Assembly (NCBI GenBank): GCA_016214895.1
Contig: JACRMR010000003.1
Span: 186,001-250,000, forward strand
Source: a candidate division KSB1 bacterium
Lineage (GTDB): Bacteria > Electryoneota > RPQS01
Direction: 5' to 3'
DNA length: 64,000 nucleotides
The notes under the pieces are model-generated. The model was not told the origin of the DNA and searched no databases. It saw only the letters and a list, made by a program, of their open reading frames with translations. Positions 4,172-55,507 of this stretch are shown in pieces. Positions within the stretch are counted from its first letter, which is position 1, and each line of letters opens with the position of its first letter. The position numbers and the translations under genes are program-made.

Positions 4172-4199
4172 AATATAGAAAAGGAAGTGTGATTGTCAA
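4172..4199 (-). promoter_or_regulatory. Near-consensus sigma70-type promoter
   Basis: Read on the minus strand: TTGACA, a 16-base spacer and TATATT; predicted start near 4165. It is one of the best promoter matches in the window and points leftward into the leader of the zinc-ribbon gene pair. Confidence 0.65.
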
Positions 4200-46338: not shown

Positions 46339-48222
46339 TTACGCTTCCACGCGTACCATGAAGACCGGGACCTGCACCCGGTGCCGGACGCGCGTGGCGG
46401 TTGCGCCGAAGAGAATGTCCTGCGTGAAGCGGTGGCCGTGCGTGCCCATGATGAGCAGATCAATGTCTTCATCATGGACGATGCGCACGATTTCGTCAGG
46501 CGGATTACCGTAGCCGAGCACGACTCGAACGTTGACGCCGAGTTTCGCGACTTCGTCTCGCAGATTGGCCATGTAGGCTTCGTCGCCCACGACTTCGTGG
46601 TCGCTGGACTGTTCTCTCCAGAAGCGGGGACCGAGTCCGTCCATGACGTGAATCAGGGCAAGTTCGGAGTCATAGCGCTTGGCCATGGCGACACCCTGAC
46701 GCACGAGCTTGGCATCGGTTGCGGAGACTTCGATTGCGACTCCGACGCGACGATAGACGGCTTCGGGCACGGCTTCGAGATGGAAGGTGGGCAGGGCTTC
46801 GGCGCGTTTGCGGGTTCGGCGCAAGATCGGCACCATGGCCAGATACAGGAGCAGCACGGCGAGGCCGGCGGCAATGAGGAGGACCAGCACATGATACCAC
46901 TGCGGACCGGCGGGACTTGCGGAAATCCAGTTGCCAAGGATACTGCTGACCAGCCGCACGTTCAGCCCGATAATCAGAATGGCGGCGATCCAGGCGAGCA
47001 TCTTGACCCACGTGCGATTGGCGAATTCGCCCATTTTGGATTGGTCGCTGGTGAAATGGATCAGCGGCAGAATGGCGAACGGCAATTGCATGGAGAGCAC
47101 GACCTGCGAGAGAATCAGCAGTTGATAAGTCCCGGAGTCGCCGAGGACGAGCAGGGTGAGTACGGCGGGGACGATGGCCAGCGAGCGGGTGATCATGCGG
47201 CGCAGCCAGGGGCGGATGCGCAGATTGACGAAGCCTTCCATCACGACCTGCCCGGCCATGGTCCCGGTGAGCGTGGAACTCTGGCCGCTGCAGAGCAGGG
47301 CGATGGCGAAGGCGGCGCTGGCGACGGTGGTGCCGAGCAGCGGCGCGAGCAGTTGATGCGCCTGCTGAATTTCGGTGACTTCGACGGCGTTGCGATGAAA
47401 GACGGCGGCGGCGAGAATGAGGATTCCGGCATTGACGAAGAAGGCGGCATTGAGGGCGATGGCGGAGTCCACGAGATTGTATTTGCAGGCCTGTCGCACG
47501 AGGGCGCTGGTGTTGCCGACCTTGCGCGTTTGCACGAGCGCGGAATGCAAGTACAGATTGTGGGGCATGACGGTGGCGCCGAGAATTCCGATGGCGACGT
47601 AGAGGCTTTCCTGATTCAGCCGGGGCGTGAATCCCAAGGCGATCCCGCCGAAGTCGGGTTTACTCAGGAACATTTCGAGCACGAAACAGGCGCCGATGGT
47701 GAGCACGAGCGCGAGGATGAAGGCTTCGACCTTGCGGATGCCGAGGTGTTGGAAATAGAGCAGCAGCAGCACGTCGAGCGCGGTGAGCACGACCCCCCAG
47801 AGCAGCGGCAGTCCGAAGAGCAAATTGAGGGCGATGGCGGTTCCCAGGACTTCGGCGAGATCGCACGCGACGATGGCGATTTCGCAGACGACCCAGAGCA
47901 TCAGTCCGACGGGTCGCGGATAGGCTTCGCGGCAGGCGCGGGCGAGATCGCGGCCGGTGACGATGCCGAGGCGGGCGCTGAGGGCCTGCAGGAGCACGGC
48001 GATCATGTTGCTCATGAGGAGGACCCAGATCAACTGATAACCGAAGCGCGAGCCGCCTTCGATATCCGTGGCCCAGTTGCCGGGGTCCATATAGCCGACG
48101 CTGACGAGATAGGCCGGACCGGCGAATGCCAGCAGCCGGCGGAAGGCGCTGACTTTGTCGGGAATTCCGACGGTGCGGTGGACCTCGGAGAGCGAGGCGG
48201 GCGGGGTGGAGCGAGTGTTCAT
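46339..48222 (-). CDS. mntH: Nramp-family Mn/Fe transporter MntH fused to a universal stress protein domain
   Basis: A 627-residue fusion. Residues about 25-460 form an Nramp transporter with eleven likely helices; the metal-site motifs DPGNWATDIEGG (46-57) and MPHNLYLHS (219-227) are intact, so proton-coupled Mn2+ or Fe2+ uptake across the inner membrane is expected. Residues about 480-627 form a UspA domain with the nucleotide-binding segment DLLIMGTHGHRFTQDILFGATA near the end. The ATG overlaps the mntR stop by 4 bases and follows GGAG. Fusion of transporter and Usp domain on one chain suggests that ATP or another nucleotide tunes uptake, an inference. A trailing family C repeat pair stands right after the stop. 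Confidence 0.94.
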   Translation of the reverse strand: MNTRSTPPASLSEVHRTVGIPDKVSAFRRLLAFAGPAYLVSVGYMDPGNWATDIEGGSRFGYQLIWVLLMSNMIAVLLQALSARLGIVTGRDLARACREAYPRPVGLMLWVVCEIAIVACDLAEVLGTAIALNLLFGLPLLWGVVLTALDVLLLLYFQHLGIRKVEAFILALVLTIGACFVLEMFLSKPDFGGIALGFTPRLNQESLYVAIGILGATVMPHNLYLHSALVQTRKVGNTSALVRQACKYNLVDSAIALNAAFFVNAGILILAAAVFHRNAVEVTEIQQAHQLLAPLLGTTVASAAFAIALLCSGQSSTLTGTMAGQVVMEGFVNLRIRPWLRRMITRSLAIVPAVLTLLVLGDSGTYQLLILSQVVLSMQLPFAILPLIHFTSDQSKMGEFANRTWVKMLAWIAAILIIGLNVRLVSSILGNWISASPAGPQWYHVLVLLIAAGLAVLLLYLAMVPILRRTRKRAEALPTFHLEAVPEAVYRRVGVAIEVSATDAKLVRQGVAMAKRYDSELALIHVMDGLGPRFWREQSSDHEVVGDEAYMANLRDEVAKLGVNVRVVLGYGNPPDEIVRIVHDEDIDLLIMGTHGHRFTQDILFGATATRVRHRVQVPVFMVRVEA

Positions 48223-48920
48223 TTGCTGCTCCGGGGGAGGGTGGTTTTGGCGGACTTGGGCTTCGGTTCGGTTTCGAGGAGAATTTGATCGGCGAGAGGT
48301 TTGCCGAGCGTAACCGGTTTGCCGTTCACTTCGAGCTGCAGTACGCTGTCATGTTCGGGGCTATCGGTGACACGCACGCGGGCGCCGGGTTTGAGGGCGA
48401 GGCCGGCGAGGTAGATCAAGGTTTCCGGCTTTTTGCCATGCACGCGGGCGACGACGGCTCGCTGATCGACGGCGAGTTCCGAGAGTCGGACCAGCGCCCG
48501 CGCGACTTCGTTGCCGTCGCTGGACGGGATGGGATCGCCGTGGGGATCGAAGGCGGGATTGCCGAGCTTGGCGTTGATCGCATCGACGAAGCGTTCGGAG
48601 ACGGCGTGTTCGATGCGCTCGGCTTCGGCATGGACTTCATCCCACGAGTAGCCGAGGTGTTCACAGAGGAAGCACTCGATCAGGCGGTGGCGGCGGATCA
48701 ATCGCGAGGCGATTTCGCCGCCTTGCCGGGTGAGGGAGATCTCGTGGCGCGGTTTGTAGTGGAGCAGCCGTCGGCGGGCCAGTTTTTGGATCATGGCCGT
48801 GACGGTGGAGTCGGTGACGCCGAGTTCGCGGGCGAGGTTGGAGGTCGAGACCGGTTCGGCGCGTTCGCGGAGCCGATGGACGAGCAGCAGGCAGTCTTCG
48901 GCGGGTGCGGATAGTTCCAT
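48219..48920 (-). CDS. mntR: DtxR/MntR-family metal-dependent repressor
   Basis: A 233-residue regulator. The N-terminal winged helix-turn-helix (about 5-65, SNLARELGVTDSTVTAMIQKL) is followed by the metal-binding and dimerisation domain (about 65-140, with HRLIECFLCEHLGYSWDEVHAEAERIEH patterns of metal ligands) and a FeoA-like SH3 domain (about 155-215). This three-domain form resembles IdeR/SirR/MntR. It probably senses Mn2+ or Fe2+ and represses the mntR-mntH operon through the palindrome at 48940-48957, which covers the predicted transcription start. No Shine-Dalgarno sequence precedes the ATG. Confidence 0.92.
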   Translation of the reverse strand: MELSAPAEDCLLLVHRLRERAEPVSTSNLARELGVTDSTVTAMIQKLARRRLLHYKPRHEISLTRQGGEIASRLIRRHRLIECFLCEHLGYSWDEVHAEAERIEHAVSERFVDAINAKLGNPAFDPHGDPIPSSDGNEVARALVRLSELAVDQRAVVARVHGKKPETLIYLAGLALKPGARVRVTDSPEHDSVLQLEVNGKPVTLGKPLADQILLETEPKPKSAKTTLPRSSK

Positions 48921-48939: not shown

Positions 48940-48957
48940 ATTTCGATACATCGAAAT
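48940..48957. promoter_or_regulatory. MntR/DtxR-type operator
   Basis: Perfect 8-bp half sites ATTTCGAT and ATCGAAAT around a 2-base centre, 20 bases before the mntR ATG and overlapping the -10 box and start point. The TTTCGAT/ATCGAAA form is like known DtxR-family boxes. Confidence 0.75.
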
Positions 48958-48983
48958 ATACACACAGATGGGGCGAAAGTCAA
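48955..48983 (-). promoter_or_regulatory. mntR-mntH promoter
   Basis: On the minus strand TTGACT, a 17-base spacer and TATATT; predicted start near 48948, inside the palindromic operator. This geometry predicts direct autorepression. Confidence 0.75.
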
Positions 48984-49155: not shown

Positions 49156-49184
49156 TTGACAAAGGAGATAAAGAATCCTATATT
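49156..49184 (+). promoter_or_regulatory. Promoter of the Cyc2-like gene
   Basis: Exact TTGACA, a 17-base spacer and TATATT; predicted start near 49191, giving a leader of about 138 bases. It is the best sigma70-type match in the window. Confidence 0.75.
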
Positions 49185-49328
49185 AAACTCGTTAGTAACT
49201 TTTTTCACAAGCGGGAGTGTAGATTGCATGGCCTTGCAGCGGCGGCCGACGCCGGTTTGAGCGGCGTTCCGCCTGTGCCTGGCGCGCTCCCGCCCGGGAC
49301 CGGTTTCACTTTACGATGGAGAACCCCC

Positions 49329-50675
49329 ATGCACAAGTCGACTGGTTTGGTTGGATGGCTGGGCGCCGTCGCGCTCGGCATCGGATTGTTCTTACTGCCC
49401 ACCTTGCTGCCTTACGCCAGCAGTGGCGATGTGTTGGCGATTCCGGCGTGGAGCCGCAAGTACGACGTGACTTGCCAGATGTGTCACGCGCCGAACTTCG
49501 CGCGCCTCAATTACTATGGCGAGCGGTTTCTGGCCAACGGCTACCAAAGCCCGGACCTGAAGGAGGCGGACGGGGACACGGAAGGTAAGAAGAAGTACAG
49601 CGATCACCTGTCGCTGGACAATGAGATCGGTCACTGGTTCACGGCGCGGCTCAATCTGACACCGGTTCAGCTCGAGACGAAGGCGCTGACGGTGAAGGGG
49701 GAGAAGAAGGACAAGCTGACGATTGGCAACACCAACTGGCTGCAACTCTTTGTGGCGGGTTCGTTGTCGAAGAACACATCGATCTACATCGAGAACGAAT
49801 TTTCCGCCGGGTCCGAACCGTTCCATCAAGCCTGGTACTACCTGGGTCTGCACAATCTCGGCAACACCTCATGGCTTAACTTTCAGGCGGGTCGTCTCAG
49901 TCCCGTCGTGTTCGCGCCGTATCCGGATCGGCTGCCGCAGCTGCCTCCGATCGGCGGAGGCGCCCTTCGCGTGACCTCGTCGAACGGTGGCGGGGTTTCG
50001 TCGGTCGATATGCGATCTCCGCGCTATGGGATCCAGTATTACGGATATCAAGGTCCGGTCTCCCTCTATGCGGGCGTGACGCCGGGGTCGAAGAACTCGA
50101 ACGCGGCGAATCAGATCGGGGTGTGGGGCGGCTTGCGATTATGGATGCCGGAGAGTGGCGCGGAAGCGCTTAAAGGCTCGTCGCTGGGTATTCATTTTGA
50201 CTCGGGCACGGATGCAAAGAACCCCGCGAACAAGCCGACGGACTCGCTGGCCTATGCCGAGAATTCTTTCGTGCGCATCATGCCGGGGTTGAACCTGCGC
50301 TGGAAGGACAAGTTTGATTTGCAGGCGGCCTATGTCATGGGCACCGAGGACAACCGCAAGCTGGTCGGGACGGGCGCGAAGGAGATCGCGTATAACGGGA
50401 TCCGCGCGGTCGGCAGTTACTTCGTGAATGAGCGCTGGATTCTGTCGTTCCACTATGACAACGTCACAACCAGCGACGAGGACAAGGCCAATCTGGCGGC
50501 CGCCGATCCGCTGAAGACCGACTACCAGTTCCTGTATATTCCGGTGGTGACCTACCTCATGCGCGAGAATATTCGCGTGAGCCTCTATCCGGGACTTGAT
50601 TTGCGTGACAAGGAGAAGATCTCCGACAAGGAGAATCACCACCTCTTTTACGTGAATATTCGCGCCGCCATCTAA
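49329..50675 (+). CDS. Cyc2-like fused monohaem cytochrome c - outer-membrane porin
   Basis: A 448-residue protein. The ATG at 49329 follows GGAG and opens a signal peptide (residues about 1-32). Just after cleavage comes AIPAWSRKYDVTCQMCHAPN with a single c-type haem site C49-x2-C52-H53, then NYYGERFLANGYQ; this I-P-x-x-x-R...C-x2-C-H...L-N-x-x-G...GY pattern is the hallmark of fused cytochrome-porins such as Cyc2. The remaining 370 residues alternate polar and hydrophobic residues in many amphipathic strands and end in a strand with an aromatic pattern (HLFYVNIRAAI), as expected for an outer-membrane barrel of about 16 strands. Cyc2 proteins pass electrons from Fe(II) across the outer membrane; the broader family has unknown substrates. 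No other haem protein is adjacent. It is divergent from mntR. Confidence 0.8.
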   Translation: MHKSTGLVGWLGAVALGIGLFLLPTLLPYASSGDVLAIPAWSRKYDVTCQMCHAPNFARLNYYGERFLANGYQSPDLKEADGDTEGKKKYSDHLSLDNEIGHWFTARLNLTPVQLETKALTVKGEKKDKLTIGNTNWLQLFVAGSLSKNTSIYIENEFSAGSEPFHQAWYYLGLHNLGNTSWLNFQAGRLSPVVFAPYPDRLPQLPPIGGGALRVTSSNGGGVSSVDMRSPRYGIQYYGYQGPVSLYAGVTPGSKNSNAANQIGVWGGLRLWMPESGAEALKGSSLGIHFDSGTDAKNPANKPTDSLAYAENSFVRIMPGLNLRWKDKFDLQAAYVMGTEDNRKLVGTGAKEIAYNGIRAVGSYFVNERWILSFHYDNVTTSDEDKANLAAADPLKTDYQFLYIPVVTYLMRENIRVSLYPGLDLRDKEKISDKENHHLFYVNIRAAI

Positions 50676-53198: not shown

Positions 53199-54947
53199 TT
53201 ACTTGAGCAGCATCATGCGGTGCACGACGTTGGTGGAGGGTCCGGTCAGGCGGACGAGATAGGTGCCTGAGGGCAATGCGCCGGCCTCGAAATTCAGCGT
53301 GTGCTCTCCGGCCGCGAAAACCTCATCTGCCAGTGTCGCCACATTTCGGCCGGTCAGGTCGAAGACATTCAGCCGGACCTGTCCGGCAGCAGGCAGGTTG
53401 AAGGAGATGCGGGTGGACGGATTGAACGGATTCGGCGCGTTGCTGATGCTGCGAGGGTCTCCCCCTGTGGACTCGAATGCGACCTGTTGGATTTCGGGCG
53501 AGCTGGTGGGTTTGTGCAGCCAATTGTGTTTGTTCATCTGGATCTGATCGATCGAGTACGTGGTGACCTCGCCTCCCGGCCAGGTGACTTCGCAGTTGAT
53601 CACGGACGACTTCATGACGGATTCGCTGACCAGCGTAATCGCGGCGCCATTGCCGCTGTTCATGCTGGCCAGACTCGCGGAGGAGCCGATGTCCTTATCG
53701 TGCTCGAAATCGAAGCGGACCTGGCAATTGGGGAGCGGCGTGCAATCATTGGGACCGCAGAGGTGCAGGACCACGAATTCATGATCGAGGGTGGTGTTAT
53801 TGCGATAGAGCCGGACGCCAAGACCTTCCTGCGCGATGGCGAGATCGGGATCCGCGTCGCCGTCGCAGTCGCCCCAGGCGGCTCCGTTATTGCGGTCGGC
53901 GCGCTGGGCGATGCCCATCTCTTCGGCGACATCCGACCACGGCAGATCGGGGCCGGGGTTCTTGAGGAGCGCACAGCCGTAACCCATCTTGCGCAGGACG
54001 AACAGCTCTTTGGTGCCGTCCATGTTGGCGTCCACCGCGCAGGCGTAAACGCCCTGTTCGGCGAGATTACGTACATTCAGCTCGTCGGTGACGGACTTGT
54101 AGTTGTGCCAGCCGTTATCGGGGTAATAACAGAGCAGATGAGTGTTCTCGGGCGAGCCGGGGGAGAACAGATCGAGTTTGTGGTCGCCGTTGAAATCGAA
54201 CCAGCAGGAACCGGTGGAGCCCATGTGTTTGGGCAGATCGACGCGGTTGGTCCAGTCGAGCAGATTTCCGTCCACATTCATGTACAGGCGCGGGCCTTGA
54301 TCGACGCGGTGGGCGCCGAGGAAGAGATCGAGGTCGCCGTCGGCATCCCAGTCCACCCAGTTCATGGCGCCGATTTCGATATCCGGCGTGGGCAGCTCGT
54401 CACTGCGCACCTGATTGAACTCGGTGGTTTCCTGGCGGAGGACGGTCATCCCGCTTTCCTCCGTTTCGCCGTTGCTGAGGATCAGGTCGAGCTGTCCGTC
54501 ATGGTCCTGATCGACCCACGCGGTGCTGCGCACGGGGATTCCGGTGCCGCTGAGATTCAAGTTAACCGGCTGGAAACGCTGTCCGCCGATTTGACGGAAG
54601 AGCTGGACGCGGATACCGGTCTCGACGAGGCAGAGCAGGTCGAGGGATCCGTCCTGGTCGAAATCCACGAATTCCGCGGATTTCACGTCGGTGACCCCGG
54701 TCAAGCTGGCGGATTCCGTAACGTTGAGGAAGCTCCCGCGGTGGCTCTGATAGAGCGCGCTTTCGGAGCCATTGTGGCCGCCGACGAACAGGTCTTGATC
54801 GCCGTCGCTGTCGATGTCTCCCCAGGCCACGCAGGCGGCATTTTCGGGGCAATTTTCGAGTTGGAGGGAGATTTCCTGGAAATCCCAGGCGAAGGCATTC
54901 AGCGCACAGAGGGCGAGCACAAGGGGCAGGGTCATCAGCCGTTTCAT
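53199..54947 (-). CDS. FG-GAP/VCBS repeat protein with UnbV domain and T9SS tail
   Basis: A 582-residue secreted protein. The ATG at 54947 follows AGGAGA and gives a signal peptide ending in NAFAW. At least seven calcium-binding loops of the form D-x-D-x-D-G-x-x-D-L are visible (DIDSDGDQDLFVGG, DFDQDGSLDLL, DQDHDGQLDLIL, DWDADGDLDLFLG, DFNGDHKLDLF, DANMDGTKELFV, DCDGDADPDLAI), indicating an FG-GAP beta-propeller. Next comes an ASPIC/UnbV-type domain (about 385-490) with VTWPGGEVTTYSI. The C-terminal type IX sorting domain has NAPNPFNPSTRISF, DLTGRNVATL and terminal RMMLLK. It is probably a surface or released binding protein. Confidence 0.9.
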   Translation of the reverse strand: MKRLMTLPLVLALCALNAFAWDFQEISLQLENCPENAACVAWGDIDSDGDQDLFVGGHNGSESALYQSHRGSFLNVTESASLTGVTDVKSAEFVDFDQDGSLDLLCLVETGIRVQLFRQIGGQRFQPVNLNLSGTGIPVRSTAWVDQDHDGQLDLILSNGETEESGMTVLRQETTEFNQVRSDELPTPDIEIGAMNWVDWDADGDLDLFLGAHRVDQGPRLYMNVDGNLLDWTNRVDLPKHMGSTGSCWFDFNGDHKLDLFSPGSPENTHLLCYYPDNGWHNYKSVTDELNVRNLAEQGVYACAVDANMDGTKELFVLRKMGYGCALLKNPGPDLPWSDVAEEMGIAQRADRNNGAAWGDCDGDADPDLAIAQEGLGVRLYRNNTTLDHEFVVLHLCGPNDCTPLPNCQVRFDFEHDKDIGSSASLASMNSGNGAAITLVSESVMKSSVINCEVTWPGGEVTTYSIDQIQMNKHNWLHKPTSSPEIQQVAFESTGGDPRSISNAPNPFNPSTRISFNLPAAGQVRLNVFDLTGRNVATLADEVFAAGEHTLNFEAGALPSGTYLVRLTGPSTNVVHRMMLLK

Positions 54948-55507
54948 CGTTTCTCCTTTCGTCGGTCGAGTCGCACGCTCGGCGCGCGAATCTTCCGTCA
55001 TCATGCGTATCAGTGCAAACCACAGCAACAAATCAGATCAGGGAATTTGGGGTTTGAATCTCCTTTGCAGGTTTGAATTTGGCAACGCGACGCGATATTT
55101 CCGGTCTCGGTAGGCAATCAGGCAAGAGCTGCACCAGCGAGGATGAGGCTCAGGATCCGGGTTAAGTTGAATGTCGAATCAGTTTGGACAACGGACCCGT
55201 GCGTGGGTATGCTGGAGGATTACAACGGGTTGTTGAAATGCCCGAATGAAAACAACCGCAGGTTTGAATTCGTCAACATGAATGGAGTGTGACCGCCGCG
55301 GGAAACGGGGGCGAAACAGGCGAGGTGCGGAATCGGAGTTGGCTTGGAGAGCATGCGGAGCGGGCAATTGATCACATTGGATGAAGGTCAGAGCACAAAG
55401 CCTGCCAACGACGTCCTTGCGGAATGCAAGGCCGGAGTTCGGATGCTGTTGACGTGCTCAGGGTATCCATTTGGAGCGGAAGGCCGAAGTGGAATAGCCG
55501 ATGCGAA
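54948..55507. other. Long intergenic region with short direct repeats
   Basis: About 560 bases with no credible gene; the 101-codon frame at 55344-55649 has no ribosome site or family resemblance. It contains a 13-base direct repeat, GCAGGTTTGAATT, at about 55066 and 55258, with related GGTTTGAAT at 55053. It should hold the promoter of the FG-GAP gene, but none was recognised. Confidence 0.45.

Follow-up and report, generated by a model that had tools for sequence, protein, structure and literature searches.

Cyc2-like proteins serve as markers of microbial iron oxidation. The locus considered here raises the question of whether a gene of this general kind, found in a stretch of 64,000 nucleotides analysed as a whole (the window), encodes an outer-membrane electron conduit, and whether such a conduit would act on iron. 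A preliminary description of the window had proposed a Cyc2-like cytochrome-porin that hinted at Fe(II) oxidation or other extracellular electron transfer. We examine this proposal from the gene itself, its haem segment, its predicted fold, its relatives and their neighbours, and the electron-transfer genes of the genome.

Gene and upstream signals

The open reading frame is intact, as previously described, and the gene is present in one copy in its 3.2 Mb genome (G000). Its features are the following.

49156 to 49184, plus strand: sigma70-like promoter of the porin, TTGACA-N17-TATATT (11/12 match)
49318 to 49321, plus strand: ribosome-binding site GGAG, read from the sequence, with the ATG 7 nt downstream
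49329 to 50675, plus strand: coding sequence of the fused monohaem cytochrome-porin, 448 aa (ATG at 49329, stop codon ending at 50675)
49329 to 49439, plus strand: signal-peptide-like N-terminus, residues 1-37 (sequence, and a hydrophobic AlphaFold2 helix at residues 5-31)
49437 to 49544, plus strand: haem segment AIPAWSRKYDVTCQMCHAPNFARLNYYGERFLANGY, residues 37-72 (conserved in both homologue alignments; motif table)
49473 to 49487, plus strand: CQMCH codons, residues 49-53, the sole CXXCH of the protein
49638 to 50669, plus strand: predicted 16-strand beta-barrel, residues 104-447 (AlphaFold2 pLDDT 80.5, pTM 0.79; Foldseek)

The hydrophobic helix agrees with the signal peptide noted earlier, and signal peptidase would plausibly cleave between VLA and IP, which is the likely site. 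The promoter had been called the strongest in the window; it does hold the top sigma70-like score, in a tie with a promoter at 4199 on the minus strand (16-nt spacer). Sequence searches of Pfam, NCBIfam and the PDB with the porin returned nothing significant.

Haem segment and Cyc2 motifs

The single CXXCH lies in the context AIPAWSRKY-DVT-CQMCH-APNFARLNYYG-ERFLANGY, which the preliminary description had recognised as Cyc2-type. A degenerate peptide drawn around it, [AQ][FW][AS]RKYx[MVF][ST]C, matches 263 stretches in 84,980 genomes, and because 246 of these encode relatives of the porin, the context is more than chance. The 246 relatives came from a scan of the same genomes with a 12-sequence alignment; a contig scan with the window sequence alone as query gave no relatives. 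CXXCH is present in every homologue obtained by whole-protein searches of the phylum. Among 44 diverse homologues, many of them recruited by a pattern that reaches the first Cys of CXXCH, this motif never varies, nor do RKY, G64 and G71 around it, while the barrel sequence does. Besides CXXCH, neither a Met nor a His that might serve as sixth haem ligand is conserved across the family.

The protein was then compared with what is published for Cyc2. Directly upstream of the haem motif, the Cyc2 consensus is AXPXFAR[QK][TY] (PMC8406198); the window porin, with AIPAWSRKY, agrees at 5 of the 7 specified positions and carries W for F and S for A. Downstream of CXXCH, the PXL of Cyc2 is replaced by ARL (P to A) with a one-residue insertion, an insertion common to the L039 and Nitrospira proteins, both of which retain the P. 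The length of 448 aa lies above the Cyc2 minimum (at least 365 aa), there is a single CXXCH, and the predicted structure contains a 16-strand porin barrel. An adjoining periplasmic cytochrome gene, usual for Cyc2 if not strictly defining, is absent within two genes of the porin. General porins of the haem-less kind have no conserved haem motif; in this family CXXCH is conserved. Since the sequence departs from both AXPXFAR[QK][TY] and PXL, we do not call the protein Cyc2; on its sequence we assign it to a divergent subfamily within the Cyc2-like fused cytochrome-porins, set apart from Cyc2 by the published consensus motifs.

Predicted barrel

AlphaFold2 was run on an alignment of 44 homologues and modelled short helices around the haem motif followed by exactly 16 strands. 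Foldseek comparison of the model with the PDB retrieved the 16-strand porins chitoporin, PorB, OmpU and OmpF, with E-values down to 7e-12. Published models of Cyc2 and Cyt572 likewise have 16 strands, their nearest structures being PorB and PhoE (PMC8406198, PMC10654088). A long conserved loop at about residues 191-231 (YPDRLPQLP) joins strands 5 and 6. If the modelled strands alternate as usual, this loop would be extracellular, and His175, which is conserved in the subfamily and is the first candidate for a sixth haem ligand, would lie at a periplasmic turn.

The barrel-like C-terminal part proposed from the sequence is thus a porin fold in the model. Its final strand, HLFYVNIRAAI, had been described as aromatic; this is right only in part, since the strand contains F and Y but its terminal residue is Ile. 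A failed barrel prediction, or a place among porins without haem, had been named as grounds against the proposal: the prediction did not fail, and the gene is not among the haem-less porins.

Relatives and phylogeny

Full-length relatives among 39 genomes of the phylum were found in G035 and G013 only (42-46% identity, E about 1e-80 to 1e-90), and eight further genomes match the window porin mainly at the haem segment. In the tree, the window porin groups with the G035 and G013 proteins (support 99/97), and these three are nested in an 11-sequence clade, hereafter WSRKY (support 100/100). The clade also carries labels of Kiritimatiellota, Acidobacteriota, Campylobacterota, Myxococcota, Chlamydiota and Elusimicrobiota, which were taken from MAG titles, so that some bins may be mislabelled. 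Within the window's own family, WSRKY is carried by 1 of 11 genomes and is therefore accessory, and the FARKY proteins of that family form a separate clade.

The nearest group outside WSRKY comes from Nitrospirota and Gammaproteobacteria, with weak support (80/67). A plasmid search with the window protein gave no match; using a relative as query, two FARQTG-type proteins were retrieved from Caballeronia and Methylocystis plasmids, both with c-type cytochrome genes downstream. These two proteobacterial proteins, which are the whole FARQTG-type representation in the tree, lie far from WSRKY.

Cytochrome genes beside relatives

We next consider the neighbourhoods of the relatives. A c-type cytochrome gene on the same strand lies within two genes of the porin at 6 of 12 WSRKY loci and at 59 of 76 other loci of the superfamily, compared with a background of 11 among 409 genes five or more positions away. 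Neither the window porin nor that of G013 has a cytochrome gene as neighbour. A small monohaem cytochrome is encoded directly downstream of the WSRKY porin at L035, L037, L039, L041 and L042; at L035 (the same locus as L013) its gene overlaps the porin stop codon. Multihaem proteins occur near the porin at L037, L038 (on the opposite strand), L039, L041, L042 and L043. The richest arrangement, in an Elusimicrobia MAG (L042:6663-17841), places in a row a decahaem protein, MtrB_PioB (1.5e-104), the cytochrome-porin, a monohaem protein, 7-, 14- and 5-haem proteins and Rieske/cytochrome b.

Other observations concern these neighbourhoods. The L042 run appears to be a gene cluster for extracellular electron transfer in which outer-membrane conduits of two kinds occur together. 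FARKY porins of Ignavibacteriota, Aminicenantota, Zixibacteria and the window's phylum stand at most loci directly behind a gene for a 4-5-haem c554-like protein of about 440-510 aa, forming a conserved two-gene module (L015-L017, L020-L023, L051, L056, L059, L060, L063 and most of L066-L114). In Nitrospirota and Gammaproteobacteria, the gene directly after the porin encodes a dihaem cytochrome of about 260-300 aa (L045-L047, L053, L070, L080, L081, L098, L110), an order reminiscent of cyc2-cyc1.

Electron chain of the genome and proposed role

The window genome was examined family by family. An Alternative Complex III and haem-copper oxidase operon lies on the window's own contig, cytochrome c maturation genes are present, and further haem proteins of the genome are a lipoprotein, small and with one haem, and a protein with 5 haems. 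RuBisCO and MtrB/PioB (PF11854) were not detected in this genome. A multihaem cluster on contig C1 (L213), comprising a 13-haem protein, a 4-haem c7-like protein and ResB/CcsA, was left out of the evidence: its tetranucleotide composition stands apart (0.255 versus 0.09-0.20 for the main contigs), and it may be contamination. C1 shares outlying tetranucleotide composition with a second short contig of the genome, C10 (L215), which points to possible bin contamination or recent transfer.

Taken together, sequence features, homology, the predicted fold, the neighbourhoods of relatives and the cytochrome chain of the genome suggest that the window porin is probably an outer-membrane single-haem electron conduit, Cyc2-like in its working, a judgement that covers either direction of electron flow. 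In such a conduit, the single c-type haem of the short N-terminal segment would sit either within the 16-strand outer-membrane barrel or at its mouth on the periplasmic side. One redox partner would be small and either extracellular or reachable through the pore, with dissolved Fe(II) as first candidate and Mn(II) as second. Single electrons would pass between this partner and a periplasmic c-type cytochrome, and the latter would in this genome supply the chain of Alternative Complex III and haem-copper oxidase. Of this picture, we infer the attachment of the haem, the location in the outer membrane, the direction of electron flow, the substrate and the partner.

The conduit in the preliminary description is accordingly upheld as a candidate by homology, fold and relatives' neighbourhoods, and its interpretation as a whole is partly supported. 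Fe(II) oxidation itself is no more than possible, given that the Cyc2 motifs are partly matched, that an electron-carrier gene does not adjoin the porin and that the genome lacks a detectable RuBisCO. Inward oxidation of Fe(II) or Mn(II) by the window porin is thus a tentative reading, and we regard it as rather doubtful.

Linkage to a metal regulator and transporter

The porin is divergent from what had been described as an Mn/Fe regulator, and Pfam identifies a DtxR-family regulator and a Nramp-Usp protein at this position.

46339 to 48222, minus strand: Nramp (Mn/Fe) transporter fused to a C-terminal Usp domain (PF01566, 7e-139; PF00582, 8e-24)
48219 to 48920, minus strand: DtxR/MntR-family metalloregulator with Fe_dep_repress, Fe_dep_repr_C and FeoA domains (Pfam), divergent from the porin
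48940 to 48957: perfect palindrome ATTTCGAT-AC-ATCGAAAT covering the -10 box of the dtxR promoter; putative operator for DtxR
48955 to 48983, minus strand: promoter of the dtxR-nramp operon, TTGACT-N17-TATATT (10/12 match)

This arrangement bears on an alternative in which the haem-porin acts on Fe or Mn at the outer membrane, by reduction or otherwise, and so lets Fe2+ or Mn2+ into the periplasm for import by Nramp under DtxR, electrons flowing outward in small amounts for nutrition and not for respiration. It is a live alternative because in 3/3 WSRKY members of the phylum, despite differing arrangements, both DtxR and Nramp are encoded no more than about 5 kb away from the porin, and DtxR was seen near the porin in 0/7 phylum members that have a FARKY porin and a DtxR of the same type (contigs being short in several of these). 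In own-family genomes, the neighbour of the orthologous DtxR is Nramp in G006 and an ABC metal transporter in G001 and G010, as gene names read from the sequence indicate, and what stands between the TPR protein gene and dtxR differs from genome to genome. The lack of a detected RuBisCO and the position of FeoA-FeoB in L038, some 7 kb away from the porin, also agree with metal supply.

Against this, no second copy of the palindrome at 48940-48957 occurs in the window at up to 3 mismatches, including the porin promoter. WSRKY members in other phyla adjoin c-type cytochromes and not metal transporters, and the DtxR-Nramp linkage may reflect shared ancestry. We know of no haem-porin with a metal-supply role. 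On balance, metal supply seems an improbable main function of the window porin. The more general version, in which DtxR/Nramp-linked WSRKY porins are outer-membrane metal reductases or gates feeding Fe2+ or Mn2+ to a dedicated importer, would be a long shot, and to our knowledge the Cyc2 architecture has not been described in nutritional metal supply.

Control of the porin by DtxR was considered and rejected: the window holds a single copy of the palindrome, and the sequences upstream of the porin in L013 and L014 showed no operator copy. The adjacency of DtxR to the porin is conserved, but control is not supported. The metal regulation proposed earlier thus holds in that an Mn/Fe regulator adjoins the porin, and falls short in that the likely operator lies on the regulator's own promoter, with no copy at that of the porin. 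Feo linkage as a pattern was likewise set aside, L038, L058 and L107 being too sparse to count.

Further features of these loci were recorded. A Nramp-Usp fusion of similar length is present in L014 and is apparently split into two genes in L013. Upstream of dtxR in G035 (L013:12860-12940) lies TTATGTTAGGCTAACCTAA, which is unlike the window palindrome and appears close to the textbook DtxR box. At 53202-54950 the window encodes an FG-GAP repeat protein with the T9SS sorting tail Por_Secre_tail (PF18962), in line with the T9SS mentioned in the preliminary description; it adjoins a TPR membrane protein, and the order of this pair seems conserved beside DtxR in G001 (L218).

Outward respiration and a pore function as less likely readings

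A conduit could also serve outward respiration, with electrons passing from menaquinol through multihaem cytochromes and the haem-porin to an extracellular acceptor. The WSRKY relatives at L038, L041 and L043, which stand beside NapC/NrfH-like or other membrane multihaem cytochromes, and the L042 porin, beside MtrB_PioB and a decahaem protein, are consistent with this. The window genome itself has an oxygen-reducing chain, lacks MtrB/PioB, and contains as its sole large multihaem cluster found the C1 cluster, a composition outlier and possible contamination. Moreover, soluble donors are considered the better match for a small barrel with one haem (PMC9040806). We hold outward respiration unlikely for the window porin. 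A further reading, in which the protein is an ordinary porin that serves as a pore and its haem site is structural or vestigial, would fit the general-porin fold and the changed Pro of PXL and Phe/Ala of the consensus, but is made very improbable by the invariance of CXXCH, RKY, G64 and G71 in 44 sequences with a variable barrel and by the strong association of the family with cytochrome genes.

With the WSRKY subfamily one can ask whether an architecture of the Cyc2 kind implies iron oxidation in every case. Its members lie outside the published consensus motif, occur in many uncultured lineages, and are tied to multihaem electron-transfer clusters or metal-uptake genes; motif-based surveys could therefore miss or misread WSRKY porins.

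Comparison with known systems

The concept of an outer-membrane haem conduit is common to the window porin and MtrAB/PioAB/MtoAB, which differ in combining a decahaem cytochrome with a separate 26-strand barrel; the window porin has one haem motif and is without a Pfam match. The Cyc2 of Candidatus Manganitrophus (Nitrospirota) is, like the window porin, a monohaem cytochrome-porin, and its part in Mn(II) oxidation is a hypothesis, proposed beside a porin-dodecahaem complex (PMC9040806). Unlike Manganitrophus, the window genome has no porin-dodecahaem complex that we could find (MtrB_PioB absent). Leptospirillum Cyt572 (cluster 3), compared here by its published description, is also a cytochrome-porin with structural matches to PorB (PMC10654088), and is distinguished by an unusual haem and an acidophile context (PMC8406198).

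Closer to hand, the FARKY porins of the same phylum, Ignavibacteriota, Aminicenantota and Zixibacteria have the architecture and haem segment of the window porin; they differ in forming a distinct clade, in usually standing behind a 4-5-haem c554-like gene, and in having about 20% identity to the window protein. The comparison extends to Cyc2 itself (Mariprofundus Cyc2-PV1, Acidithiobacillus Cyc2; McAllister/Keffer clusters 1-3), for which function is uncertain in homologues outside cluster 1 (PMC8406198). Unlike Cyc2, the window porin matches the consensus motifs in part (AIPAWSRKY, ARL), has no adjoining cytochrome gene and lies far from the FARQTG type on the tree. Like Cyc2, it has a signal peptide, one CXXCH, a predicted 16-strand barrel to which a short cytochrome segment is fused and a length above 365 aa, and its conservation is highest around the haem (PMC8406198).
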